A DNA stretch of 64,000 bases from Rubrobacter aplysinae. Lineage in GTDB: Bacteria; Actinomycetota; Rubrobacteria; Rubrobacterales; Rubrobacteraceae. The stretch is from NCBI RefSeq assembly GCF_001029505.1, contig NZ_LEKH01000002.1, positions 186,001-250,000 of the forward strand, read 5' to 3'. The position numbers and the translations under genes were made by a program. Under the pieces are notes generated by a model. It was given only the letters and a program-made list of their open reading frames with translations, searched no databases and was not told the DNA's origin. Of this stretch, positions 31,800 to 49,047 are shown one piece after another (position 1 is the stretch's first letter; every line of letters begins with the position of its first letter).

Positions 31800-33791
31800 A
31801 TGAGGCTCGGGGTAGACGTCGGGGGAACCTTTACGGACCTGGTCGCGCTCGGCGGCGGCAAGATCATAACCGCGAAGGTACCTTCCACCCCACGCGACCA
31901 GTCCGAGGGCGTTATGTCTGGCGTGGAGGCGTCCGGGATACAGGCTCAGGAGGTATCTGCTTTCGCCCACGGGATGACGGTCGCGACGAACGCGCTCTTG
32001 GAGCGGCGTGGGGCGCGGACGGCGCTCGTAACGACGGAAGGTTTCCGGGACGTTATCGAGATCTCCCGCCAGAACAGGCCCTCGCTCTACGACCTTACCC
32101 TGGGCCGCTCTCCGGCGCTGGTGCCGCGCGGGCTACGCTTTACCGTCGGGGAAAGGATGGGGCCGGAGGGCGAAGTAGAACCGCTGGACGAGGATAGCCT
32201 GGAGGATACAGTCGAGGCGCTGCGAGAATCCGGGGTCGAAGCGGTCGCGGTGTGCCTCCTGTTCTCGTTTCTCCACCCCGAGCACGAGCGCCGGGTCGGG
32301 GAGAGGCTGCGAGAGGCGCTGCCGGAGACCCACGTCTCGCTTTCGAGCGAGGTGCTGCCGGAGTTCCGAGAGTACGAGAGGTTCTCGACGACCGCCGCGG
32401 ACGCCTACCTCGGACCGAAGCTGGCCGCGTATCTTAATAACCTCGCGGATAAGGTCGAGGCAGCCGGGATGCCGGAGCCGCTGGTGATGCGGTCCTCCGG
32501 CGGGGTCGTGGAGCTCGAGACGGCGGCGCGCTCGGCGGCGTCTTGCGTCCTCTCCGGTCCGGCGGGCGGCGTCGTTGGCGCGGCCTACGTCGCGGCGGCC
32601 TCAGAATACCGAGACCTGCTCACCTTCGACATGGGCGGCACGAGCACGGACGTCGCGCCCGTTATCGGGGGCGAGGCCCTGACCACGACCGAGGCCGAGG
32701 TCTCCGGTGTGCCGATCAAGCTGCCGATGGCCGACGTCCACACGGTGAGCGCGGGCGGCGGCTCCGTCGCCTGGGCCGACGCCGGGGGAGCCCTGCGCGT
32801 CGGGCCTCATTCCGCCGGCGCGGACCCCGGCCCGGCAGCCTACGGTCTCGGCGGCGAGCAGGTAACCGTAACGGACGCGAACCTGTACCTGGGGTACTTG
32901 CGGGACGGCGTGGAGCTCGGCGGACAGGTCACGCTCTCCCGCAAGAGCTCGGAGGAGGCACTCGCCCGTCTCGGGGAGGAGCTTGGCCTGAGCCCCCTCC
33001 AGGCCGCGCTCGGCGTCGTGCAACTGGCGGACACGGAGATGGTCCGGGCGCTGCGTGTCATAAGCGTGGAGCGGGGCCTGGACCCCAGGGAGTTCGCCCT
33101 CGTCGCCTTCGGCGGGGCCGGGCCGCTCCACGCCTGTTCTATAGCCGAGGAGCTCGGGGCGGACACCGTACTCGTCCCGAAAGCGAGCGGCGTGCTCTCT
33201 GCGCTCGGGCTTGCCGTCTCGGACGTGCGCCGCGACCTCCTGACCCCCTACCTCTCCCCGCTCGCCGAGGCCGACGCGCAGGAGGTACAGGAGTCTTTCG
33301 AGGGGCTGGAGCGTACGGCGGCGGAAGAGTTGCGCGCCCGGGGCGAGCCCGTTTTCGAGCGGCGGGCGGATCTCCGCTACGGCGGGCAGTCGTTCGAGTT
33401 GCCGGTCGGGGCGGACGGCATCGGGGAGGTTTGGGATCTCGCATCCCGATTCCACGAAGCCCACGAGCGGCGCTACGGCTACCGGATGCAGGAGGAGCCT
33501 GTAGAGCTGGTAAACCTGCGGCTCGTCGCGACAGTCCCGGTAGAGAAGCCGCCTATCTCCGAAGGCCCGCCAACCGGAGAGCCGGAGCCCGGCTCCAGGG
33601 AGGCCCACTTCGGCGGCGGGTGGCGGGAGGTCCCCGTGCTCGACCGCTCGGAGATGGGCCGAGGCTCCCCTGTCGAGGGGCCGGCGGTGGTCGAGTTCGC
33701 GGAATCCACCTGCGTCGTGCAGCCCGGCTGGAGCGGTGCGGTAGACGCAGCCGGTACGCTGGTACTGATAAAGGAGGCCGGAGATGAGTAA
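31800..33791 (+). CDS. hyuA: hydantoinase/5-oxoprolinase subunit A
   Basis: ATP-dependent ring-opening amidohydrolase subunit of 663 residues. The N-terminal actin-like ATPase motif is RLGVDVGGTFTDLVAL. A second ATP-fold signature is LLTFDMGGTSTDVAPVIGG, and FGGAGPLHACSIAEELG is diagnostic of the HyuA family. Its last 8 bases overlap hyuB. It pairs with HyuB to hydrolyse hydantoins, 5-oxoproline or related lactams, or to carboxylate acetone-like substrates; context favours 5-oxoproline. Confidence 0.92.
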   Translation: MRLGVDVGGTFTDLVALGGGKIITAKVPSTPRDQSEGVMSGVEASGIQAQEVSAFAHGMTVATNALLERRGARTALVTTEGFRDVIEISRQNRPSLYDLTLGRSPALVPRGLRFTVGERMGPEGEVEPLDEDSLEDTVEALRESGVEAVAVCLLFSFLHPEHERRVGERLREALPETHVSLSSEVLPEFREYERFSTTAADAYLGPKLAAYLNNLADKVEAAGMPEPLVMRSSGGVVELETAARSAASCVLSGPAGGVVGAAYVAAASEYRDLLTFDMGGTSTDVAPVIGGEALTTTEAEVSGVPIKLPMADVHTVSAGGGSVAWADAGGALRVGPHSAGADPGPAAYGLGGEQVTVTDANLYLGYLRDGVELGGQVTLSRKSSEEALARLGEELGLSPLQAALGVVQLADTEMVRALRVISVERGLDPREFALVAFGGAGPLHACSIAEELGADTVLVPKASGVLSALGLAVSDVRRDLLTPYLSPLAEADAQEVQESFEGLERTAAEELRARGEPVFERRADLRYGGQSFELPVGADGIGEVWDLASRFHEAHERRYGYRMQEEPVELVNLRLVATVPVEKPPISEGPPTGEPEPGSREAHFGGGWREVPVLDRSEMGRGSPVEGPAVVEFAESTCVVQPGWSGAVDAAGTLVLIKEAGDE

Positions 33792-35331
33792 CCGGCTCGA
33801 CCCGGTAACCCTCTCGGTGCTCTCCGGGGCGCTCTCGGGCATAGCGGAGGAGATGGGGGCCGTGCTCATAAGGGGCTCCTACTCCTCGAACATCAAGGAG
33901 CGCCGCGACTGCTCTACCGCGCTCTTCGACTCGCGGGGCAGGACGGTTTCGCAAGCAGAGCACATCCCGGTCCACCTCGGCGCGATGCCAGAGGCGGTTG
34001 CGGCGGTCATGCAGCGGGACCCCGAGCCCGGCGACGTGTTCGCCCTCAACGACCCGTACTCCGGCGGCACCCACCTGCCGGACATAACGCTCGTCTCTCC
34101 GGTGTCACACGGAGGTGAGATAATCGGGTACGCCGTCAGTCGGGCGCACCACTCGGACGTCGGCGGCATGAGCCCGGGCTCGATGCCGGTCGGCTCGCGC
34201 GAGGTTTACCAGGAGGGTACCGTGATACCGCCGGTGCGGCTGGTGAGCGGCGCGAGCGGCGGCGAGTACGTCCCGGACGTGCTGGACCTGATACTCGCAA
34301 ACGTGCGCACCCCGCGTCTCAGGAGAGGCGACCTACGAGCCCAGATCGCGGCGAATCGTCTGGCCGAGGAGCGCGTTGTAGAGTTGATCGAGCGCCGTAG
34401 CAAAGACACCGTACGGGCGGCGTTCGACGAGGTGATCTCCTACGCCGAACGCCGCACCCGCGAGGCGATCCGGGAGCTGCCGGACGGCACGTACGCGGCG
34501 GGGAGCGAGATCGAGGGCGACGGCGTCACCGACTCCGACATCCCGCTCCAGGTAGAGATAAACATATCCGGCGACGAGCTGAGCGTGGACTTCTCCGGCA
34601 CCTCGGACGCCGTAGCCGGAAACGTGAACTGCCCGCTCGCCGTGACCCGCTCGGCCTGCTACTTCGCCCTACGCGTCCTGCTGCCGGACGATGTGCCCGC
34701 AAACGCCGGGACCTACGCCCCGCTCTCCATACACGCCCCGGAGGGCAGCCTCGTGAACGCCCAGAGCCCATCGGCGGTCGTCGCCGGAAACGTAGAGACC
34801 AGCCAGCGCGTCGCCGACACGCTCCTGCTCGCCCTCTCAGGAGCGGCGGACCTCATCGCCGGAGGGCAGGGCACGATGAACAACCTCATAATCGGCGGCA
34901 CCGGGGACGGGGGCTGGACCTACTACGAGACCATCGGCGGCGGCCAGGGCGCGAGCGCCACAGGTCCGGGTCCATCCGGGGTCCACGTCGGCATGTCGAA
35001 TACCCTGAACACGCCCATAGAGGCGCTTGAGCTGGAGTACCCGATGCGTGTAACCCGCTACGAGCTACGCTACGGCTCCGGCGGTGCCGGGAAATACGCG
35101 GGCGGGGACGGCCTTGCCCGTTCCGTCAGGTTGCTCGCCCCGGCACAGCTATCCCTGATCTCCGACCGCCGCCGCCACGGGACGCACGGCCTCGGCGGCG
35201 GAGAGCCCGGAGATACCGGCAAGAATCTACTCAATAACGAGGAGCTACCCCCGAAGGCGAGCCGCGAGCTACGGCCGGGAGACGAGGTGACGGTCGAGAC
35301 ACCGGGCGGCGGAGGTTACGGGAGAGAATAG
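33784..35331 (+). CDS. hyuB: hydantoinase/5-oxoprolinase subunit B
   Basis: Partner subunit of the HyuA-type amidohydrolase, 515 residues, normal length. Family markers include IKERRDCSTALFDSRG, AEHIPVHLGAMPEAV, FALNDPYSGGTHLPD and the C-terminal ETPGGGGYG. ATG 33784 lies within the last codons of hyuA and follows GGAG, so translation is coupled. It probably acts with the YcsI- and YcsG-like genes just upstream as one catabolic operon. Confidence 0.92.
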   Translation: MSNRLDPVTLSVLSGALSGIAEEMGAVLIRGSYSSNIKERRDCSTALFDSRGRTVSQAEHIPVHLGAMPEAVAAVMQRDPEPGDVFALNDPYSGGTHLPDITLVSPVSHGGEIIGYAVSRAHHSDVGGMSPGSMPVGSREVYQEGTVIPPVRLVSGASGGEYVPDVLDLILANVRTPRLRRGDLRAQIAANRLAEERVVELIERRSKDTVRAAFDEVISYAERRTREAIRELPDGTYAAGSEIEGDGVTDSDIPLQVEINISGDELSVDFSGTSDAVAGNVNCPLAVTRSACYFALRVLLPDDVPANAGTYAPLSIHAPEGSLVNAQSPSAVVAGNVETSQRVADTLLLALSGAADLIAGGQGTMNNLIIGGTGDGGWTYYETIGGGQGASATGPGPSGVHVGMSNTLNTPIEALELEYPMRVTRYELRYGSGGAGKYAGGDGLARSVRLLAPAQLSLISDRRRHGTHGLGGGEPGDTGKNLLNNEELPPKASRELRPGDEVTVETPGGGGYGRE

Positions 35332-35961: not shown

Positions 35962-35998
35962 TATAATCCTCGCTTACACGTATAGTTGTCCATACCAA
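35962..35998 (+). promoter_or_regulatory. gntR -10 element and dre-like operator
   Basis: TATAAT at 35962-35967 is a good -10 with no clear -35. TTGTCCATACCAA at 35986-35998, whose complement reads TTGGTATGGACAA, matches the site before the PTS gene at 11 of 13 positions. It resembles the operators of DasR/NagR-type regulators. Its place about 20 bases after the -10 suggests auto-repression. Confidence 0.65.
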
Positions 35999-36021
35999 AT
36001 TTTGTATTCGAACGGAGGATC

Positions 36022-36750
36022 TTGTCCGGTCTGGATACGAGCAGCCCGCTGCCGAAGTACCACCAGCTCAAGGAGATACTGCGCGGCATGATCGAGCGCG
36101 AGGATCTGCAGCGGGGCGAGATCATCCCTCCGGAGCGTGAGCTGTGCGAGGAGTACGGCATAAGCCGCATGACGGCGCGGCAGGCCATAGTCGAGCTGGT
36201 AAACGAGGGCATCCTGTACCGGGAGCAGGGCCGGGGCACCTTCGTAGCCGGAGAGAAGGTAAAGCAAGAGGCCGAGCGTCTGGCGAGCTTTACCGAGGAC
36301 ATGGCCGGGCGGGGCCACGAGACGACCAGCTCCGTGCTGGACGCGGAGTCGGTAGAGGCCGGGCCGGTGGTCGCGCGCCTGCTTGGTATAGAGGAGACCG
36401 AAAAGGTGGTCCGCATCCGGCGCGTGCGCCACGCGGACGGGGAGCCGATGGCGCTTGAGACCAGCCACCTCTTGCACGAGGTGGCGGAGGGGCTGCTTAG
36501 GCTCGACCTCTCCTCACGCTCCATCTACGACGAGCTCCGCACCGGCGGCCTGAGCATAGCCTGGGCCGAGCAGAGCTACGAGGCGACCGTGATCAACGAG
36601 CTCGAGGCGGAGCACCTCGGGATCTCGACCGGCAGCCCCGCGCTCCTCATAGAACGCGTCACCCACGACGACCGGGATCTCGCCTTCGAGTACGTGAAAA
36701 GCACCTACCGCGGAGACCGCTACCGCATCACCACCACCCTCCGTCCCTGA
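36022..36750 (+). CDS. GntR-family (HutC/UTRA) regulator of amino-sugar use
   Basis: A 242-residue regulator. The N-terminal winged HTH reads LPKYHQLKEILRGMIERE, then IIPPERELCEEYGISRMTAR and GTFVAGEKV. The C-terminal UTRA effector domain has VVRIRRVRHADGEPMALE and LLIERVTHD. It resembles NagR/DasR, which bind GlcN-6-P or GlcNAc-6-P. The start is placed at TTG 36022, after GGAGG at 36014-36018; a TTG at 35986 lies inside the operator and is not used. The matching operators before this gene and before the PTS gene indicate that it controls the nag operon. Confidence 0.88.
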   Translation: MSGLDTSSPLPKYHQLKEILRGMIEREDLQRGEIIPPERELCEEYGISRMTARQAIVELVNEGILYREQGRGTFVAGEKVKQEAERLASFTEDMAGRGHETTSSVLDAESVEAGPVVARLLGIEETEKVVRIRRVRHADGEPMALETSHLLHEVAEGLLRLDLSSRSIYDELRTGGLSIAWAEQSYEATVINELEAEHLGISTGSPALLIERVTHDDRDLAFEYVKSTYRGDRYRITTTLRP

Positions 36751-36783: not shown

Positions 36784-36827
36784 TTGACATCCCCGTTCTT
36801 AGTCAATATCGTAATTGGTATAGTCAA
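36784..36827 (+). promoter_or_regulatory. nag operon promoter and dre-like operator
   Basis: TTGACA at 36784-36789, 17 bases, then TATCGT at 36807-36812. The operator TTGGTATAGTCAA at 36815-36827 overlaps the expected transcription start. AGTCAATAT occurs twice, at 36801-36809 and 36822-36830, 21 bases apart, so a second half-site is possible. Position and similarity to the gntR site support repression by the GntR protein. Confidence 0.68.
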
Positions 36828-36852
36828 TATGACCATGAAGGGAAGGGGAAGC

Positions 36853-38403
36853 ATGGCCGCGAGTACGAGCGGGCAGGGGCGAAAGTTTAGCTGGGGCTCC
36901 ATTCTAGGCCCTTTGCAGAGCATCGGACGAGCATTGATGCTGCCGATAGCGGTGTTACCGGCGGCGGCGTTGCTGCTCAGGCTCGGGCAGGACGACCTGC
37001 TGGGATTGCCGTGGATGGCCGCGGCTGGCGGGGCGATCTTCGATAACCTCTCGTTGATCTTCGCGATAGGCATTGCGATAGGGTTGACCGGCTCCGCGGG
37101 GGCCGCGGCGGTGGCCGCGATCGTTGGTTACCTCGTCTTTTCCGGGGTGTTCAACTCCCTGGCCCCGCAGCTCGCCGAGGAGGGCGCTGATCCCCTGGCC
37201 AGCATGGGCGCCGTGGACAGCATGGGCGTGTTCTCCGGGATCATAATCGGGCTGACGGCCGCCGGCCTCTACCGGCGCTACAACGACATCCGGTTGCCGG
37301 ACTACCTGGCCTTCTTCGGCGGCAAGCGGTTCGTCCCCATAGTCACGGCTCTGGTGGCGCTCGTGCTGGGCGCGGTCTTCGGGTTCGTGTGGCCCGTGGT
37401 GGGCTCCGGGATCGAGGCGATGGGGCAGTGGCTCGTCGGGCTCGGAGCCGTGGGGACCGGGATCTACGGCTTCTTCAACCGCCTGCTCATACCGCTCGGG
37501 CTGCACCACGTGCTGAACACCTACATCTGGTTCCAGCTCGGCTCGTTCCAGGGGGCGGACGGCGTGGTCCACGGCGAGATCACGCGCTACTTCGCCGGGG
37601 ACCCGGACGCCGGAAGCTTCCTCGCCGGGTTCTTCCCCATAATGATGTTCGGCCTCCCGGCGGCTTGCCTGGCCATGATCCGGCACGCCCATCAGACCAA
37701 GGTCGCCTCGGGTATCCTGCTCTCCGCGGCCTTCGCCTCGTTCCTCACGGGCATAACGGAGCCCATAGAGTTCGCGTTCCTGTTCGTCGCGCCGGTGCTC
37801 TTCCTGGTCCACGCCATACTGACGGCCTCCGCGATGGTCGTGACCACGCTGCTCGGCATTCAGATGGGCTTCGGCTTCTCCGCCGGGGCCATAGACTACG
37901 TGCTCAACTTCTTCGCGGAAAACACCGACAAGCCGCTGCTGCTGTTGCTGGTCGGGATCCTCTACGGCGGCGTCTACTACTTCGTGTTCAGCTTCTTTAT
38001 CAAGCGGTTCGACCTCGCGACGCCGGGCCGTGGCGGGGCCGAGGGCACCGGCGGGGCGGATTGGATCCTGCCCGAGAGCCAGCGCGGCCCGGCAAAGGGT
38101 ACGGAGGGTGGCGAGGAAAGCGAAGCCTCCGAAAAGCCGGAGGAGGAGCGCGACGCCGACGACGTGCTGGCCGGGAACGCGCTCGCGGCGCTCGGTGGCC
38201 GGGAGAACGTCGAGAGCGTCGAGGGCTGCATAACCCGCCTGCGGTGCGTAGTCTCCGAGCCGGAGAGCGTGGACGAGACGCGGCTGAAGGGGCTGGGCGC
38301 CTCGGGTGTCGTGAAGCGCGGCCAGGTGGTGCAGGTGGTCATGGGCACCCAGTCCGACCGCATCGCCGAGCGCATGAACCGCCAGCTAAAGACGGAGGCA
38401 TAG
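36853..38403 (+). CDS. nagE: PTS EIIBC component, N-acetylglucosamine/glucose family
   Basis: Membrane permease-kinase of the phosphotransferase system, 516 residues. The EIIC part (about 10-395) has some ten helices with GRALMLPIAVLPAAALLLRL at the front and the GITEPIEFAFLFVAP sugar-site motif. A charged linker (about 405-435) joins the EIIB domain, whose phospho-cysteine lies in VEGCITRLRCVV. ATG 36853 follows a purine-rich GGAAGGGGA site; the frame upstream overlaps the promoter and operator. The nagB/nagA genes downstream make GlcNAc the likeliest substrate, with MurNAc also possible. Confidence 0.9.
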   Translation: MAASTSGQGRKFSWGSILGPLQSIGRALMLPIAVLPAAALLLRLGQDDLLGLPWMAAAGGAIFDNLSLIFAIGIAIGLTGSAGAAAVAAIVGYLVFSGVFNSLAPQLAEEGADPLASMGAVDSMGVFSGIIIGLTAAGLYRRYNDIRLPDYLAFFGGKRFVPIVTALVALVLGAVFGFVWPVVGSGIEAMGQWLVGLGAVGTGIYGFFNRLLIPLGLHHVLNTYIWFQLGSFQGADGVVHGEITRYFAGDPDAGSFLAGFFPIMMFGLPAACLAMIRHAHQTKVASGILLSAAFASFLTGITEPIEFAFLFVAPVLFLVHAILTASAMVVTTLLGIQMGFGFSAGAIDYVLNFFAENTDKPLLLLLVGILYGGVYYFVFSFFIKRFDLATPGRGGAEGTGGADWILPESQRGPAKGTEGGEESEASEKPEEERDADDVLAGNALAALGGRENVESVEGCITRLRCVVSEPESVDETRLKGLGASGVVKRGQVVQVVMGTQSDRIAERMNRQLKTEA

Positions 38404-38404
38404 A

Positions 38405-38863
38405 GTGAGCAAGATTCAGGTACTCGCGCCGATCGCCGGTCAGGCCATCCCCATGAGCCAGGTGCCGGACGAGGTGTTCGCCGAGGGGATGGCCGGAGAA
38501 GGAGCCGCCGTGGTGCCCTCCGGGAGCGGCGAGGCGGTCGCCCCCATCTCCGGCACGCTGGCAAAGCTGTTCGAGGGCGGCCACGCCTTTGGCATCGCCG
38601 CCGCGGGCGGGGTGGAGCTCATAGTACACCTCGGCCTCGACACCATCGAGATGGAGGACGGGGGCTTCGAGAAGCTCGCCACCCAGGGGGACGAGGTGGA
38701 GGCCGGACAGCCTATAGTGCGCTTCGACCTGGAGGCCATAAACGCCGCCGGCTACGAGCCCACGACCCCCGTGGTCGTTACCAACTCCGACGAGCACGCC
38801 GTAACCGGCCAGCAGACCGGCGAGGTCGGGGCCGGAGACCCGCTGTTCGAGGTCGAGGGTTGA
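38405..38863 (+). CDS. PTS EIIA component, glucose type
   Basis: Cytoplasmic phosphocarrier, 152 residues. The phosphorylated histidine lies in GVELIVHLGLDTI, and VLAPIAGQAIPMSQVPDEVF and the C-terminal FDLEAI fit the PTS_EIIA_1 family. It starts at GTG 38405, immediately after the EIIBC stop, and its stop overlaps the next start (TTGA). It supplies phosphate from HPr to the preceding EIIBC. Confidence 0.93.
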   Translation: MSKIQVLAPIAGQAIPMSQVPDEVFAEGMAGEGAAVVPSGSGEAVAPISGTLAKLFEGGHAFGIAAAGGVELIVHLGLDTIEMEDGGFEKLATQGDEVEAGQPIVRFDLEAINAAGYEPTTPVVVTNSDEHAVTGQQTGEVGAGDPLFEVEG

Positions 38864-39678
38864 CCCGAAAAGCCCGGATCCTGGACTGCGGCCCGGAGGA
38901 GTTCCGCGGCATGGACGGCGGGGAGCTGCTGCAGTCCATCCGGCTCTCCGAGGGCCGCACCCTGATGGCCGAGATCCTCCACCCCTCCCCGCCGCTGGTG
39001 GACGGGGCCTCGAACGCCGCCGTCGCCGTGGCTTTCGGCGCGGATCTCGTCTTGCTCAACAAGTTCGGCGGCGAGGATCTCGCAGGAATCAAACGCTCCC
39101 TCGGACGTCCCGTGGGCGTCAACGTCGAGCCCTCCGAAGAGGTCGAGGAGCACCGCCGGGCGAGCCGGGAGAACCTCTCGCGGCTGGAGGATGCGGACTT
39201 CCTCGTGATAACCGCCAACCCCGACGCAAGGATAGAGACCGGTGACCTCGTCTCCGCCGCCCACACGGCGAGAGACGAGCTGCCCGACACCCCGCTATTG
39301 TGCGGCAAGATGCATGGCAGCGGTGGCCGGGGCATGCCCGAGGCGTCCGAGATCGGTACCCTCGCCGAGGGGGCGGATGCCGTGCTGATACCGGCGCCGG
39401 GCACGGTGCCCGGCAGCCTGGAGTCGGCCGTCGCGGAGCTGGCGCAGGCGGTTCACGAAGGAGGAGCCCTGGCGGTGGCGGCTGTCGGCACGTCCCAGGA
39501 AGGCGCGGACCGGGAGACGGTGCGGGGGATCTCGCTCTCCGCCAAACGTGCCGGGGCCGACGTGCTCCACCTGGGAGACGCGGGCCTCTCCGGCGTCGCG
39601 GAGCCCGAGAACCTGATGTCGGCCTCCCTGGCTATTAGAGGCCGCCGCCACACCTACCGGCGCATGGCGATGAGATAG
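38860..39678 (+). CDS. PTS-linked protein of unknown function (DUF7916-like TIM-barrel)
   Basis: 272 residues. Barrel-like blocks include ELLQSIRLSEGRTLMAEIL, GASNAAVAVAFGADLVLLN, LGRPVGVNVEPSEEV, ADFLVITANPDARIETGD and PLLCGKMHGSGG. These fit a family often mislabelled haloacid-dehalogenase hydrolase and now listed, as I recall, as DUF7916; it recurs beside PTS genes. No HAD or kinase motif is present. TTG 38860 overlaps the EIIA stop, so it is firmly within the operon. It may be a phosphosugar isomerase, epimerase or lyase; this is inference. Confidence 0.65.
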   Translation: MTRKARILDCGPEEFRGMDGGELLQSIRLSEGRTLMAEILHPSPPLVDGASNAAVAVAFGADLVLLNKFGGEDLAGIKRSLGRPVGVNVEPSEEVEEHRRASRENLSRLEDADFLVITANPDARIETGDLVSAAHTARDELPDTPLLCGKMHGSGGRGMPEASEIGTLAEGADAVLIPAPGTVPGSLESAVAELAQAVHEGGALAVAAVGTSQEGADRETVRGISLSAKRAGADVLHLGDAGLSGVAEPENLMSASLAIRGRRHTYRRMAMR

Positions 39679-39705: not shown

Positions 39706-40443
39706 TTGGAACTCCACGTACACGACAGCCACGAAGGGGTTAGCCGGACCGCCGCCGAGACGGTAAGTGACACCGTTTCCGAAAACCCCGGCGCGAACCT
39801 GCTCCTGCCCACGGGCTCGACCCCCAGAGGCATGTACCGGGAGCTGGTGCGCCTGTACCGGGAGGGCGGCCTGAGCCTCTCCGATACGACCATCTTCAAC
39901 CTGGACGAGTACCTCGGCATCCCCCGCGACCACCCGGAGAGCTACCGGCGCTACATGCAGGAGAACCTCTATCGCCACGTGGACGCCGACCCTGCCAGAA
40001 CACACATCCCGGACGCCGAGACCCCGGCCCCGGAGGAAGAATGCCTGCGCTACGACGCCGCGATAAAGGAGACGGGCGGGGCCGACCTGTGCGTGCTCGG
40101 CATCGGGCGTAACGGGCACATCGGGTTCAACGAGCCGGGCTCCCCCTTCTCCTCGCGCACGCGGGTCATGGGGCTCGCCGAGTCCACCCGCCGCGCAAAC
40201 GCCGAGGGCTTCGACGCCGGGGCGGCGCCGGAGCAGGCGATCACGGTCGGCATGCAGACCATCTTCGAGTCGCGGAAGGTGCTGCTCCTCGCCTCCGGGC
40301 CCGAAAAGGCCGAGGCGGTCGCCGCCGCCGTCGAGGGCGAGGTTTCCCCCCAGACGCCGGCCTCGATGCTCCGGGAGCACCCGGACGTCACCTTCCTCCT
40401 AGACCGCGAAGCCGCCTCGGCGCTACGGAGGGAGGTCGCGTGA
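39706..40443 (+). CDS. nagB: glucosamine-6-phosphate deaminase
   Basis: Converts glucosamine-6-phosphate to fructose-6-phosphate and ammonia. The 245-residue protein has PTGSTPRGMYREL for phosphate binding, FNLDEYLGIPRDHPESY with the catalytic Asp, and GIGRNGHIGFNEPGSPF with the catalytic His/Glu. TTG 39706 has AAGGAG 8 bases upstream. Its stop overlaps the GTG start of the NagA-MurQ gene, giving coupling. Confidence 0.95.
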   Translation: MELHVHDSHEGVSRTAAETVSDTVSENPGANLLLPTGSTPRGMYRELVRLYREGGLSLSDTTIFNLDEYLGIPRDHPESYRRYMQENLYRHVDADPARTHIPDAETPAPEEECLRYDAAIKETGGADLCVLGIGRNGHIGFNEPGSPFSSRTRVMGLAESTRRANAEGFDAGAAPEQAITVGMQTIFESRKVLLLASGPEKAEAVAAAVEGEVSPQTPASMLREHPDVTFLLDREAASALRREVA

Positions 40444-42560
40444 GGGGCGGTATGAGGGGCAGTGTTAGGGACGGCGCGCAAAATCAGGCGGGGAGCCTCG
40501 CGATCCGGGGCCGGGTGGTTACCCCGGATGCGGTGTGGGACGGTGGCACGATCCTCGTCGAGAGTGGCGAGATAAGGGCCGTCAGCCGCGAGCCGCTCGC
40601 CGCGGACGCCGTGGTCGAGCTGCCGGACCATTATCTCGTGCCCGGCTTCGTGGACCTGCAGGTCAACGGCGGGTTCGGCGTGGACGCGGTGGATCGGCCG
40701 GGGCGTCTCGGAGAGCTCTCAGCCGCCCTGCCCGCGACCGGCGTCACCTCCTACCTCCCGACGCTGGTCACGCTGCCGCTCGGGCGCTATCCGGCCGTGA
40801 TCGGCGGTCTGGATCTGGACCCGGACAGAGGCGCGGTCCCGCTCGGGCTTCATCTCGAAGGCCCGTTCATAAGCCCCGAGAAGCGGGGCGCGCACGCGGC
40901 GGAGGCGGTCGCCGAGCCGGACCCGGACGCGCTCGCGGAGCTGCTGGACGCCGGGCCGGTAGAGATGGTAACGCTCGCCCCGGAGATGCCGGGCGCGGGA
41001 GCCCTGATCGAGCTCGCCGCGAGCCGGGGCACCGTCGCCTCCCTCGGCCACTCGGCCGCCTCGTTCGAGGAAGCTCTGTCGGGATTCGAGTCTGGAGCGG
41101 CGGGCGTGACGCACCTGTTCAACGCCATGAGCCCGCTGCACCACCGCGACCCCGGTCTCCCCGGCGCGGCGATGCTAAAAACGGCGGACTCCGCGCCACG
41201 CTGCGGCATGGTCGCCGACGGCCGTCATGTCCACCCCGAGATGGTCCGGCTCGCCTTCGAGCGGCTGGGGCCGGACCGGATGTACCTGGTCACGGACGCG
41301 ATGGCAGCCGCCGGGATGGGACCGGGCGAGTACGAGCTCGCCGGACGCACCGTTTCCATGCGGGATGGCATCCCGCGTCTGGAGGACGGCACGCTCGCCG
41401 GTAGCGTGCTCACGATGGACGAGGCGATACGCAACGCGCTGGAGTTTGCCGGCTGCTCGTTGCCGGAGGCGGTACGCATGGCGACGGCCACCCCGGCGGC
41501 CTTGATCGGGGCCGCCAAAAAGGGCCGCCTCACGCCGGGCTCCGACGCCGACGTGGTCGCGCTCTCGCCCGATCTGCTGGTGGAGGCAGCCTGGGTCGGC
41601 GGCAGGCTCGTGTACGAGAGAGACGTGCAGAGCACGCGGGACGGAGACCAGAGGGCCGTCGTGATCCGGGAGGGATCAAAGCCCCCGGCACTGGACGAGA
41701 TGGGTACCGGAGATCTGCTCCGGGCGATGAACAGGGCGGACGCGGCGGTGGCCCCGGCGGTAGAGGCGGCGGTACCGGATATCGAGCGCGTCGTGGAGCG
41801 CGCGCGGGAGACGGTGGCCGGGGGCGGGCGGGTGATCTACGCCGGAGCCGGGACCAGCGGCCGGCTCGCCGTTGCCGACGCCGCCGAGTGCTCCCCCACC
41901 TTCGGCGTCGCGCCGGGCACCTTTACCAGCGTCATGGCCGGCGGCCTCGAAGCGTTGTACGAGGAAGCGGCGGAGGCGGAGGACGGCGCGGCGGAGGGCC
42001 GCCGGGCGATACGGGAGCTGAATGTCGGGGCCGGAGACCTCGTGGTCGGGGTGTCGGCCAGCGGCGCCACGCCTTTCACCCTCGCGGCCCAGCTGGAGGC
42101 CCGGGAGCGCAGGGCCGCCACGGCCTGCATAGTGAACCTGGCGGGCTCGGATATGGCCCGGAATGCCGACCTCCCGGTAGAGATAGCAACGGGAGCGGAG
42201 ATCCTGCCCGGCTCCACCCGGCTAAAGGCCGGGACCGCCCAGAAGCTGGTCTTGAACATGATCTCCACCGCCACCCTGGCGGGGCTCGGCTACGTCCACG
42301 GCGACATGATGGTCGGCATGCGGCCCTACAACCACAAGCTCCGTGGGCGCGCGGAGAGCATGGTCCGGGAGATCACGGGCTGCAGCGAGCCCGAGGCCGC
42401 CTCGGCTCTCCAGAGCACGGAGTACGATATCCGCGGGGCGGTACTGCTGGTAGACGGGGTAACTTCCGCCCACGAAGCCGCCCGTCTGCTCCGGCTGGTG
42501 GAGGGAGACTTACGCAGAGCCCGGGAGTACGCCCCGCAATCCGAGACCACGAACAATTGA
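40440..42560 (+). CDS. NagA-MurQ fusion: GlcNAc-6-P deacetylase + MurNAc-6-P etherase
   Basis: A single 706-residue frame. Residues about 18-395 are N-acetylglucosamine-6-phosphate deacetylase, with DHYLVPGFVDLQVNGGFGVD, GLHLEGPFISPEKRGAH, ASLGHSAASF, THLFNAM and VTDAMAAAGMGPGEY. After a ~15-residue linker, residues about 403-706 are N-acetylmuramic acid 6-phosphate etherase, with VIYAGAGTSGRLAVADAAEC, the catalytic-type Glu in AAECSPTFG, GVSASGATPFTLAA and LKAGTAQKLVLNMIS. No stop or ribosome site separates the parts. The product could open the lactyl ether of MurNAc-6-P and then deacetylate the GlcNAc-6-P formed, feeding NagB just upstream. The start is GTG 40440, overlapping nagB. Confidence 0.92.
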   Translation: MRGGMRGSVRDGAQNQAGSLAIRGRVVTPDAVWDGGTILVESGEIRAVSREPLAADAVVELPDHYLVPGFVDLQVNGGFGVDAVDRPGRLGELSAALPATGVTSYLPTLVTLPLGRYPAVIGGLDLDPDRGAVPLGLHLEGPFISPEKRGAHAAEAVAEPDPDALAELLDAGPVEMVTLAPEMPGAGALIELAASRGTVASLGHSAASFEEALSGFESGAAGVTHLFNAMSPLHHRDPGLPGAAMLKTADSAPRCGMVADGRHVHPEMVRLAFERLGPDRMYLVTDAMAAAGMGPGEYELAGRTVSMRDGIPRLEDGTLAGSVLTMDEAIRNALEFAGCSLPEAVRMATATPAALIGAAKKGRLTPGSDADVVALSPDLLVEAAWVGGRLVYERDVQSTRDGDQRAVVIREGSKPPALDEMGTGDLLRAMNRADAAVAPAVEAAVPDIERVVERARETVAGGGRVIYAGAGTSGRLAVADAAECSPTFGVAPGTFTSVMAGGLEALYEEAAEAEDGAAEGRRAIRELNVGAGDLVVGVSASGATPFTLAAQLEARERRAATACIVNLAGSDMARNADLPVEIATGAEILPGSTRLKAGTAQKLVLNMISTATLAGLGYVHGDMMVGMRPYNHKLRGRAESMVREITGCSEPEAASALQSTEYDIRGAVLLVDGVTSAHEAARLLRLVEGDLRRAREYAPQSETTNN

Positions 42561-42570
42561 GCGGGCGGCA

Positions 42571-43494
42571 ATGAAGCATCGCGCGGGCATCGTCGGGCTC
42601 GGGAGCATCGCGTCGAAGATGTACCTGCCCCTACTCTGCAACCATCCCGGGGTAGAGGTCGCGGGGCTTGTGAGCCGCTCACCCGAAACCGTGCAGTCGT
42701 ACGGCGAGCAGTACGGCGTTTCTCACCGCTCTACCGATCTGCGGCAACTGCTGGTCCTGGAGCCGGAGATCGTGTTCGTCAGCTCCCCCACCGAAACCCA
42801 CTTCGAGATCGTGACGCAGTGCCTCAGAGCGGGCGTGAACGTATACGTGGACAAGCCGCTCTCCTACGATCTAGCCGAGGCCGAGGAGATGGCGGCGCTG
42901 GCGGAGGCGCGGGGGCTGCTGCTGGCGGTCGGATTCAACCGGCGGTTCGTGCCGCTCTACCGCGAGGCCCGGGACTGGATGGAAGCGGGAGGCGGCCTCG
43001 AGCTCGCGGTGGCGCACAAGAGCCGCACCGCCTCCCAGCGCGCCCCGGCCCGTCAGACCGTCTACGACGACCTCATACACGTTGTAGACACGCTCGTGTG
43101 GCTCGGCGGCCCCGCCGCCGAGACGCTGCACTACGCCCAACGCCTGGACGACGCCGGACGGCTCCTCACCGCGACCGGGACGCTGTCTCTGGGCGAGGCG
43201 GCGGCGCAGTTCTGGATGCAGCGCAGCTCCGGGGGCAACGGCGAGAGCCTGGAGCTGCACGGCGGGGGCAGATACGCCAGGGTCACCGGCCTCGAACGCG
43301 GGGTACTCGGGAAAGAGGGCACGGAGCTGACCCGGGTGCCCGGCGGCTGGGACCCCGTCGCCCACCGCAGAGGCTTCACCGGCATGATAGATCACGTGCT
43401 GCAGAGCCTCGCCGAACCCACAGCCTGCGAGGTGGGAGCGGAGAAGGTGCTCCCGACGCACCGCATCTGCGAACAGCTCCTTTTACGGCATTGA
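42571..43494 (+). CDS. Gfo/Idh/MocA-family oxidoreductase
   Basis: NAD(P)-dependent sugar dehydrogenase-like protein, 307 residues. The Rossmann loop RAGIVGLGSIASKMYLPLL is at the N-terminus, with VDKPLSYDLAEAEEM (the EKP motif as DKP) and FNRRFVPLYREA in the C-terminal domain. It is the last gene of the amino-sugar operon, 10 bases after the fusion gene. It may act on an N-acetyl or anhydro sugar from wall turnover; the substrate is not known. Confidence 0.87.
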   Translation: MKHRAGIVGLGSIASKMYLPLLCNHPGVEVAGLVSRSPETVQSYGEQYGVSHRSTDLRQLLVLEPEIVFVSSPTETHFEIVTQCLRAGVNVYVDKPLSYDLAEAEEMAALAEARGLLLAVGFNRRFVPLYREARDWMEAGGGLELAVAHKSRTASQRAPARQTVYDDLIHVVDTLVWLGGPAAETLHYAQRLDDAGRLLTATGTLSLGEAAAQFWMQRSSGGNGESLELHGGGRYARVTGLERGVLGKEGTELTRVPGGWDPVAHRRGFTGMIDHVLQSLAEPTACEVGAEKVLPTHRICEQLLLRH

Positions 43495-46374: not shown

Positions 46375-49047
46375 TTATTCAGGTGCCCCACGCTCTCTGA
46401 GCCACGTGATAACCATCTGTTGCTTGGGGTCTCCGACCGTCTCATATAGCGAGCGTGCCCGACGGACGAGGGCAACGGCCTCGGTAAAATTTCTCGCTTC
46501 GATTAATTGCGCCAAGTTAAACGAGGCGTCTGCTTCTTCCTCAGGTGCACAGGCGTTGTGCGCAGAGACGACTGCGCGACGATAAAGGTCCTCGGCTCGA
46601 TCCGGATGACCAAGACAATCCATAACGTTGCCCTTATCCATCAACGCGACGGCCAGCGACTGCTCATCGTTGTTTTCTTCGGCCCAGGCGATTACACGTT
46701 CAAAGTAGTCGATAGCCTCTTCGTACTCTTCTTCGTTCATACATAGAATGCCTAAGCTCAAGAGCGTCCTGTTGCACTCCAGATCGTCTCCAAGTTCCCC
46801 AAAGACAGAAGCCGCTGCCTTGAAAAATACCCCCGCCCGCCAGGTGTTTCCTGACTGCCGGTAAAAAATACCCAGCTTACGCAAGGTCCGAGCCTCGGTG
46901 TACGAGTCTCTATTTACACGGGAAACGTCTCGCGAGCCTTTGAAGCACCGAAGAGCTTGCTGGTGCTGGCCCGTTGCCGCATAACTTTCTCCTAAAGTTC
47001 CGAGAGCCTGGGATTCGGTGCGCCACTCTTCGATTTCTCGTGCTACTTCCAAGCAGCCCTGTGTGTACTCAATGGCCCTCGCGTAGTCACCGAACGAGTA
47101 GTAGGCTCGTCCGAGGTTGCCCAGGGCCGCGCTCTCTGCGGGACGATCCTCGTTGTTGCGGGCGTTGCGGAGGGCTTGCTCAAAGTAGGGAAGCGCACTG
47201 CGCGGGTCGCCGGCCATCGCGTGCGCAGCCCCCAGATTAGCCTTGTGAGCTTTCACATCTTCCTCGAATCCGAGCATCCCGGCAGCCTCGATCGCCTTTT
47301 CTATCCACCGAATGAGCTCCCGCGGCGGCAGCCGGATTAGAAAGATGTTGGGACCGGCGCTGGCGTATGCCGTGACAATCCGCGCGGCCTCTTCGTCCTC
47401 ACACATGTGGGCCACCGCCCAGGCGTGGGCGGCGCGAATACAGTCGTAATCCTGGTTCAGGTCTTCCAGGGCACGCCGTTGTTCATCCCCACCCTGGTTG
47501 TAAGCCTCGTTGAAGTAGAAGATCTTGGTCTCGTAGTATCTCAGGCGGCGCAGTTGGAGCTCTCTAATGTTTGGTAGTTCGGCATCGTCTTCGATCATTG
47601 AAACAGCGAACGCGGAGAGCAGTGAGTGCATCTGGAATCGTCCGTTGCCGTCCGGTTCGATCAGGCCGCGATCCGTGAGGGCTCGCAGGGTCATGCGTGG
47701 GCCGGATCGCATATCCCACACGTCTTGCGCTGCCGGGATATCGAACGAGATCGGCCGGGGTGGGAAGACGCCGAGCATGGCAAACCTCTTGCGATATAGT
47801 GGTCTCAGCCGCTCGGTGCTTCTACGCAGCAACGCGGTGACAGTAACCGGCACCTCCTGCTCGGCGGCTTGCACGTAGGAAGGAGGGGCTTGTGCCGCGA
47901 GTAATCTCTTGCCCTCGCGCAGTTCTTCGAGCAGTTCCGGAACGTCCAGCCCTCGATAGGACTCTGCGGCGAGAAGGCCACCAGCGACCCGGATAGCCAG
48001 CGGTAAGCCGTCGAGTTCCTGCACCAGTTGGCCCGACTCTTCCAGATGCTCTGTTACGACGTCTAGGGCGAGTTGCCTCAAAAGTTCTAGCGACTCCTCC
48101 TTAGATAACACCCCGAGTCTGTAGATACCTTCAGTCCTCGGAGAGATCTCTTGCGCCACCCGACTGAGGCGGGTGGTGACCAGCGTGCCGCAGCGCCGGC
48201 TTCCTACAGCTAGAGAGGCAGCGTGTGCAGACTCCCAGACATCATCTAGTATTAGCAGCGCCCGCTTCTCGCGCATCGCAGCCGCCAGACGCGCCGAAGC
48301 CTCCGATACGCTCTCTGCATCCGACAAGTCTCCTGCGCCCAAAGCCCTAGCCCAGGTAACGAGAGTAGAGAGGATCTCAGGCTCCTGTCCGAGAGAGGCA
48401 AAGAGCACCCCGTCGGGGAACATCTCCTCTACCTCTCTGTCACAGGCGAGAGCTGCGGCGACCGTAGTCTTTCCGACCCCAGGCCAGCCATGAACCACGG
48501 TAAGCACCTGCACTGGTGCCGACGTCTCATCCTCGACGCCCGTTCTCAGGTTTTCCTTCAACTCGGCAAGATCGTTCTCTCTGCCGACGAACGTCTCAGG
48601 CAGGGCAGGAACCATGCCGAACATTGAAGGCACGGATGTCCTAGCCGCGGACTCTTCATAGAGCTCCCCGCCGAACTTGAAGTTTAGTTCGTAGCGATTG
48701 CCGGTCGCGACGTTCCCACGTATATCGCCGCCTGCACTAACGCTCCGTTCACCCAACGCGACGCTTCTTTTACCAGTGTCCTTCCCACGCCCTGATAGTA
48801 ACCCCAACGCGGTGAGAATCAGGGTCAGCGGCCCGAAGACAAAGTAAGACAAGGATTCGCCATAAACATTCAACGTCCTTACGGTCTCCTCGTTCTCTCC
48901 GGCGGAGCGAACAACCGCTGGCACCCATCCCTCAGCCGTAACTCCCATAACCGACAGAACGGCGGCGAGCACCGCGCCAGCAAGCACTACCGCTCGTCTA
49001 CTGTTCAGCCCTAACCTCCATGCAACAAGATGGCAGCAAGAAGACAC
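46375..49047 (-). CDS. membrane-anchored NB-ARC/TPR STAND protein (defence candidate)
   Basis: 890 residues. Two hydrophobic helices (about 18-38 and 66-86) are followed by a RSVSAGGDIRGNVATGN linker of the kind that joins effector parts to STAND NTPases. The NB-ARC domain has Walker A GWPGVGKTT at 187-195, Walker B ALLILDDVW near 263 and GLPLA at 347-351. A winged helix and about eight TPR-like repeats (from about 600, e.g. SALGNLGRAYYSFGDYARAI) end the protein. STAND proteins with this plan include regulators and anti-phage sensors; a membrane-acting effector is inferred from the two helices. GTG 49047 is the first start, but GGAGG sits at codons 10-11, so a start near 49008 (CTG) or later is possible. 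Confidence 0.85.
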   Translation of the reverse strand: MSSCCHLVAWRLGLNSRRAVVLAGAVLAAVLSVMGVTAEGWVPAVVRSAGENEETVRTLNVYGESLSYFVFGPLTLILTALGLLSGRGKDTGKRSVALGERSVSAGGDIRGNVATGNRYELNFKFGGELYEESAARTSVPSMFGMVPALPETFVGRENDLAELKENLRTGVEDETSAPVQVLTVVHGWPGVGKTTVAAALACDREVEEMFPDGVLFASLGQEPEILSTLVTWARALGAGDLSDAESVSEASARLAAAMREKRALLILDDVWESAHAASLAVGSRRCGTLVTTRLSRVAQEISPRTEGIYRLGVLSKEESLELLRQLALDVVTEHLEESGQLVQELDGLPLAIRVAGGLLAAESYRGLDVPELLEELREGKRLLAAQAPPSYVQAAEQEVPVTVTALLRRSTERLRPLYRKRFAMLGVFPPRPISFDIPAAQDVWDMRSGPRMTLRALTDRGLIEPDGNGRFQMHSLLSAFAVSMIEDDAELPNIRELQLRRLRYYETKIFYFNEAYNQGGDEQRRALEDLNQDYDCIRAAHAWAVAHMCEDEEAARIVTAYASAGPNIFLIRLPPRELIRWIEKAIEAAGMLGFEEDVKAHKANLGAAHAMAGDPRSALPYFEQALRNARNNEDRPAESAALGNLGRAYYSFGDYARAIEYTQGCLEVAREIEEWRTESQALGTLGESYAATGQHQQALRCFKGSRDVSRVNRDSYTEARTLRKLGIFYRQSGNTWRAGVFFKAAASVFGELGDDLECNRTLLSLGILCMNEEEYEEAIDYFERVIAWAEENNDEQSLAVALMDKGNVMDCLGHPDRAEDLYRRAVVSAHNACAPEEEADASFNLAQLIEARNFTEAVALVRRARSLYETVGDPKQQMVITWLRERGAPE

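Follow-up and report, generated by a model that had tools for sequence, protein, structure and literature searches.

The window analysed here is a stretch of 64,000 nucleotides from Rubrobacter aplysinae (contig NZ_LEKH01000002.1, positions 186,001 to 250,000 of the forward strand), and all coordinates refer to it. The source genome is a 3.19 Mb draft in 33 contigs with a completeness of 98.94%. The plus strand of the window carries a gene run in the order GntR/UTRA regulator, PTS IICB, PTS IIA, DUF7916 protein, NagB, NagA-MurQ and Gfo/Idh oxidoreductase. The features of the locus are as follows:

35986..36750, plus strand, GntR/UTRA regulator (Pfam)
36784..38403, plus strand, PTS IICB, NagE-like (Pfam, NCBIfam)
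38405..38863, plus strand, PTS IIA (Pfam PF00358)
38860..39678, plus strand, DUF7916 protein (Pfam PF25509)
39706..40443, plus strand, NagB, glucosamine-6-phosphate deaminase (TIGR00502 over its cut-off)
40440..42560, plus strand, nagA-murQ fusion, 706 aa (begins with GTG at 40440, ends with TGA at 42558-42560)
40440..41615, plus strand, NagA half, residues 1-392 (TIGR00221 over its cut-off)
41616..41687, plus strand, junction, residues 393-416, between the NagA match (ending at 386-391) and the MurQ match (beginning at 417)
41661..41664, plus strand, GTGA, likely the former MurQ start codon and a possible internal start, aligning with the E. coli MurQ N-terminus
41661..42557, plus strand, MurQ half, residues 408-706 (family match 417-695; NF003915 and NF009222 over their cut-offs)
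42571..43494, plus strand, Gfo/Idh/MocA oxidoreductase (Pfam), last gene of the run

GlcNAc-6-P deacetylase (NagA) and MurNAc-6-P etherase (MurQ) are normally separate enzymes that catalyse consecutive steps on cell-wall sugar. The first-pass annotation of this DNA had placed both in one polypeptide, and this was borne out at the exact coordinates: 40440-42560 on the plus strand is a single open frame of 706 aa without an internal stop. The whole-fusion query matched its own genome only once, so the gene represents the sole NagA and the sole MurQ of this genome. The nagB/nagA boundary at 40440 is a GTGA overlap, and the PTS and NagB that had been assigned to the same operon were both recovered by family models. 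The DUF7916 gene lies between those for PTS IIA and NagB, and a counterpart with 66% identity occupies the same place in another genome (G007). Upstream of the operon, a hydantoinase A/B pair was found at 31800-35331; this block, which directly precedes the operon, is conserved at 74% DNA identity up to about 35322 in G012, a genome of the same genus in which neither NagA nor MurQ was found. The window also encodes an NB-ARC and TPR protein of 890 aa at 46375-49047 on the minus strand.

Curated family models and solved relatives identify the N-terminal half as NagA. Residues 23-386 match NagA, with family matches ending at 386-391, and the score against TIGR00221 was 277 bits (cut-off 225.65). 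The narrower model NF008371 was not reached by the fusion (233 of the 483 needed), nor was its cut-off attained by the stand-alone NagA of G007. Residues E140, H152, H204, H225, H263 and D286 are all identical to E. coli K-12 NagA E131, H143, H195, H216, H251 and D273, which are active-site (metal and catalytic) residues. The best solved relative is PDB 7nut (3e-68). In the NagA-half tree the end branch was ordinary (0.40, median 0.35); the half clustered with 25 other Rubrobacteraceae rows at a support of 100/99, and it matched a Rubrobacteraceae relative (L031) at 55-58%. The whole domain and the active-site positions are common to this half and to known NagA (TIGR00221; E. coli NagA; PDB 7nut and 2vhl), but only the fusion bears a MurQ domain at the C-terminal end.

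The C-terminal half scored 315 against NF003915 (cut-off 168) and 262.5 against NF009222 (cut-off 255). It remained below the equivalog model TIGR00274, which implies the same function (252-255, with 302 needed), and for this reason it is called here a MurQ-family domain whose MurQ-like function would follow by inference. Residues E483 and E514 are identical to E. coli MurQ E83 and E114, the catalytic glutamate pair. The active-site positions checked in NagA and MurQ are thus identical to those of E. coli, in line with the earlier statement that both sets of motifs are intact. Near-invariant MurQ positions are kept at 49 of 51 sites (E. coli MurQ keeps 48 of 50), the two altered ones being A511 and R558. 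The best solved relative was PDB 4s12 (2e-57). A structure was predicted for the MurQ half by itself, with a mean pLDDT of 89.4 and a pTM of 0.86. The model has the double-lobed SIS fold (TM of about 0.9 to 4s12_A and 4lzj), and the 11 PDB chains that match it best are MurQ without exception; residues 408-413, at the start of the half, are disordered in it. The MurQ half shares the whole domain, the predicted fold and the equivalents of E83 and E114 with known MurQ (NF003915; E. coli MurQ; PDB 4s12 and 4lzj), but sits behind NagA, is diverged and lies under the TIGR00274 cut-off.

The divergence was also evident in the MurQ-half tree, where the end branch was long (2.11, median 0.23) and the half had no supported placement, falling outside the four-member Rubrobacteraceae MurQ group. 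Judged from its sequence, the half is probably a separately acquired, diverged and working MurQ, and an altered specificity is possible. It could be argued that the MurQ half no longer works as an etherase or has a different sugar phosphate as its substrate, so that only NagA matters. The long branch, A511 and R558, and the failure to reach TIGR00274, which two stand-alone MurQs of the family (from G013 and G025) pass with 348 and 368, speak for this, as does the related SIS enzyme NagS, described as dehydrating GlcNAc-6-P in Streptomyces (PMC12680351). On the other hand, the equivalents of E83 and E114 and 49 of 51 near-invariant positions are retained, the top fold matches are MurQ only, and NagS is presented in the same study as a separate clade confined to Streptomycetaceae (PMC12680351). 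The family-model scores and the fold matches favour MurQ over NagS, which is represented here by its description rather than its sequence, and a lost or redirected etherase is considered unlikely.

The way in which the two halves are joined was analysed at the junction. The GC content at the three codon positions was 74/48/82% over residues 394-420, 76/53/87% in the NagA half and 72/54/87% in the MurQ half, and there is no break at the junction. Over the last 5-15 codons before the GTG at 41661, codon usage favoured the fused frame at every length tried, although weakly over the last 7-8 codons. These data bear on the objection that two separate genes, nagA and murQ, overlap briefly at 41661 and that a sequencing or assembly error in the last nagA codons hides the stop. 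The GTGA at 41661 would then be an ordinary overlap of start and stop codons, of the kind found at 40440; the frames are poorly discriminated in the last 7-8 codons, the genome is a draft of 33 contigs, and no relative has the fusion among the matches listed for 424 genomes. Against such an error, both the codon-position GC and the codon usage of the last 10-15 codons agree with the fused frame. A frameshift fossil in the NagA tail resembling the tail of G007 NagA was also sought, and the candidate was rejected, since, of 4000 segments drawn at random and in frame from genes of the window, 719 were as good; the frame-shifted likeness is not significant. Altogether, an error at this point seems improbable.

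A fusion could also be combined with internal initiation, so that a separate 299-aa MurQ would be made from the GTG at 41661 besides the 706-aa chain. This is compatible with a real fusion and is a somewhat better prospect than a hidden stop, yet still a minor one. A GAGG motif (41651-41654) lies 6 nt upstream of this in-frame GTG, which stands at the homologous MurQ start. However, such start motifs are frequent by chance, accompanying 4 of the 48 in-frame internal start codons of the fused ORF and 21 of 147 in the other window genes.

The closest NagA, that of G007 (63%), gives a view of the unfused state. In G007 the genes for PTS IIA, DUF7916 and NagB precede nagA in the same order and no MurQ lies behind it. 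In its tail, 15 residues separate a conserved Tyr from the stop. Counted from that Tyr, codon 16 in the window is the GTG at 41661, where the alignment to E. coli MurQ starts. The G007 stop thus corresponds to this GTG, and the two old gene ends therefore meet at one codon. A murQ gene was probably placed directly behind nagA and then joined to it through loss of the nagA stop. The gene order was surveyed in 160 loci, of which 17 have both nagA and murQ, four of these being the window's own. Among the remaining 13, eight have both genes on the same strand within 4 kb, and murQ comes first in all eight, which makes the nagA-before-murQ order of the window unusual. In two loci (G025 and G027) nagA is first with murQ 5-7 kb away, and in the three others the genes are on opposite strands.

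The survey of other genomes suggested by the first-pass annotation was carried out on 424 distinct genomes, obtained by combining an order set (39), a phylum draw (396) and a class draw (66). Among the matches listed, the fusion was found in one of them, its own, in agreement with the earlier view that it is unusual; a second genome with the same fusion was not found. In the order set, 34 of 39 genomes, own included, matched the fusion query at 1e-10, and only the own genome spanned both halves. No other genome spanned both halves in the phylum and class draws, among the matches listed; in the phylum draw two candidates per genome were scored, from score-sorted matches that end at a low-score cut. 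A fusion would be expected to lie well above this cut, although a very diverged one could escape. Clear MurQ was present in six of the 39 order genomes (own, G001, G013, G022, G025 and G027), and three more matched MurQ weakly, as other SIS proteins would. Phyla outside Actinomycetota were covered by a contig scan and a plasmid collection. The contig scan, which looks for exact matches to short peptide patterns and has little power to detect distant fusions, gave 43 named loci, none spanning both halves. Among 271 plasmid records none had the fusion; two covered at least 80% of the query, each through separate genes. A search of viral contigs for the junction returned nothing, and a search of open-licence papers retrieved none on a NagA-MurQ fusion.

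Apparent two-half alignments were discarded on inspection: in G419 (twice; loci L156 and L157) NagA is followed by a stop and then a separate GlmS-like SIS protein, and in G140 and G003 by a stop and then unrelated sequence. Related arrangements are murQ-nagA pairs such as those of Haliovirga abyssi plasmid pHIC and G329, which lie in one run and either overlap or almost adjoin each other; those remain separate genes with murQ first, whereas here they are fused with nagA first. A Bacillota MAG (JAMCQP010000034.1; L033, 2190-4724) encodes MurQ and a NagZ-like GH3 hydrolase in one 844-aa frame. MurQ is likewise joined there to a wall-sugar enzyme, but the partner differs and MurQ is N-terminal, while in NagA-MurQ it is C-terminal.

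The supply of MurNAc-6-P was evaluated next to the type of PTS. The operon PTS matches E. coli NagE IIC at 54% over 366 columns and scored 530 bits against TIGR01998 (553 needed). Its significant match to E. coli MurP was limited to 81 residues of IIB, and it does not qualify as MurP. The sole other IIC of the same PTS family in the genome lies near a mannitol dehydrogenase gene, the mannose-family PTS being outside this search. AnmK and NamZ were absent from the genome and no BadF-type kinase was over its cut-off; one GH3 protein is encoded. Among AnmK, NamZ, BadF-type kinases and the other IIC searched in the genome, no clear source of MurNAc-6-P emerged. Uptake of MurNAc by the operon PTS is possible. 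In G231, another actinobacterial genome, a PTS IIC 53% identical to that of the operon adjoins MurQ, and a study on M. smegmatis describes MurQ-dependent MurNAc use with no MurP homologue found (PMC13041923). Relatives of the operon's GntR regulator (62-66%) lie near MurQ in G001, G025 and G027. In G001 (L088, 4165-14204) hydantoinase A/B, MurQ, the GntR relative (62%) and AnmK occur together, which suggests a link between this type of GntR and the salvage of muramic acid. In G025 (L086, 7033-14017) a GntR relative, a GH3 hydrolase, a mannose-type PTS, an SIS protein and MurQ form an apparent wall-sugar cluster. The proposed role in wall recycling is plausible as such, but it stands in a genome with no AnmK, NamZ, over-cut-off BadF-type kinase or MurP-like PTS.

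In the proposed pathway, the MurQ half would cleave D-lactate off MurNAc-6-P, yielding GlcNAc-6-P. GlcNAc-6-P from this reaction, together with that supplied by the NagE-like PTS, would be deacetylated by the NagA half to GlcN-6-P, and the operon's NagB would convert the latter to fructose-6-P. The first-pass annotation had further proposed that the intermediate is channelled from MurNAc-6-P through GlcNAc-6-P to GlcN-6-P. In favour of such a transfer from MurQ to NagA, it can be said only that the steps are consecutive and share one chain. Neither genome comparison nor structure gave evidence for it, residues 408-413 are disordered in the predicted model as in a flexible linker, and the NagE-like PTS should deliver GlcNAc-6-P directly to NagA. 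Since the PTS is of this type, GlcNAc-6-P probably also reaches the NagA half by a route that bypasses MurQ. The channelling claim was not upheld and is regarded as very unlikely. The same low expectation applies to a wider proposal, in which the MurQ divergence is an adaptation to the NagA partner, GlcNAc-6-P is passed between the sites, salvage is coupled and the NagE-like PTS also takes up MurNAc. If true, muramic acid and glucosamine salvage would be coupled in one protein.

The likely explanation of this locus is that two enzymes of consecutive steps are truly fused, in a lineage-specific manner, because the frame is single, both halves exceed the cut-offs of curated models, active-site positions and 49 of 51 MurQ positions are kept, both are sole copies, a MurQ fold is predicted, codon-position GC is continuous, codon usage favours the fused frame and G007 NagA ends exactly at the equivalent of the GTG at 41661. 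It is weakened by the restriction to one genome among the matches listed, the long MurQ branch, the missed TIGR00274, A511 and R558, the lack of a clear MurNAc-6-P source and the weak codon-usage signal in the last 7-8 codons. The protein combines the domains of two well-known enzymes in a way that is new and has so far been seen in a single genome. It is probably the product of an ordinary gene fusion specific to its lineage, and not a novel type of enzyme. We infer that the full-length chain is made with both halves active, and the simplest gain would be fixed co-expression of the two steps.

If real, the fusion unites in one protein two steps of wall-sugar salvage, the last that is specific to MurNAc and the first that acts on GlcNAc, and it does so in an actinobacterial order with few MurQ genes (6 of 39 genomes). 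It would also point to MurQ-dependent use of muramic acid in an organism that lacks AnmK, NamZ and a MurP-like permease. With this one gene it could be tested whether enzymes of consecutive steps channel when they are fused.
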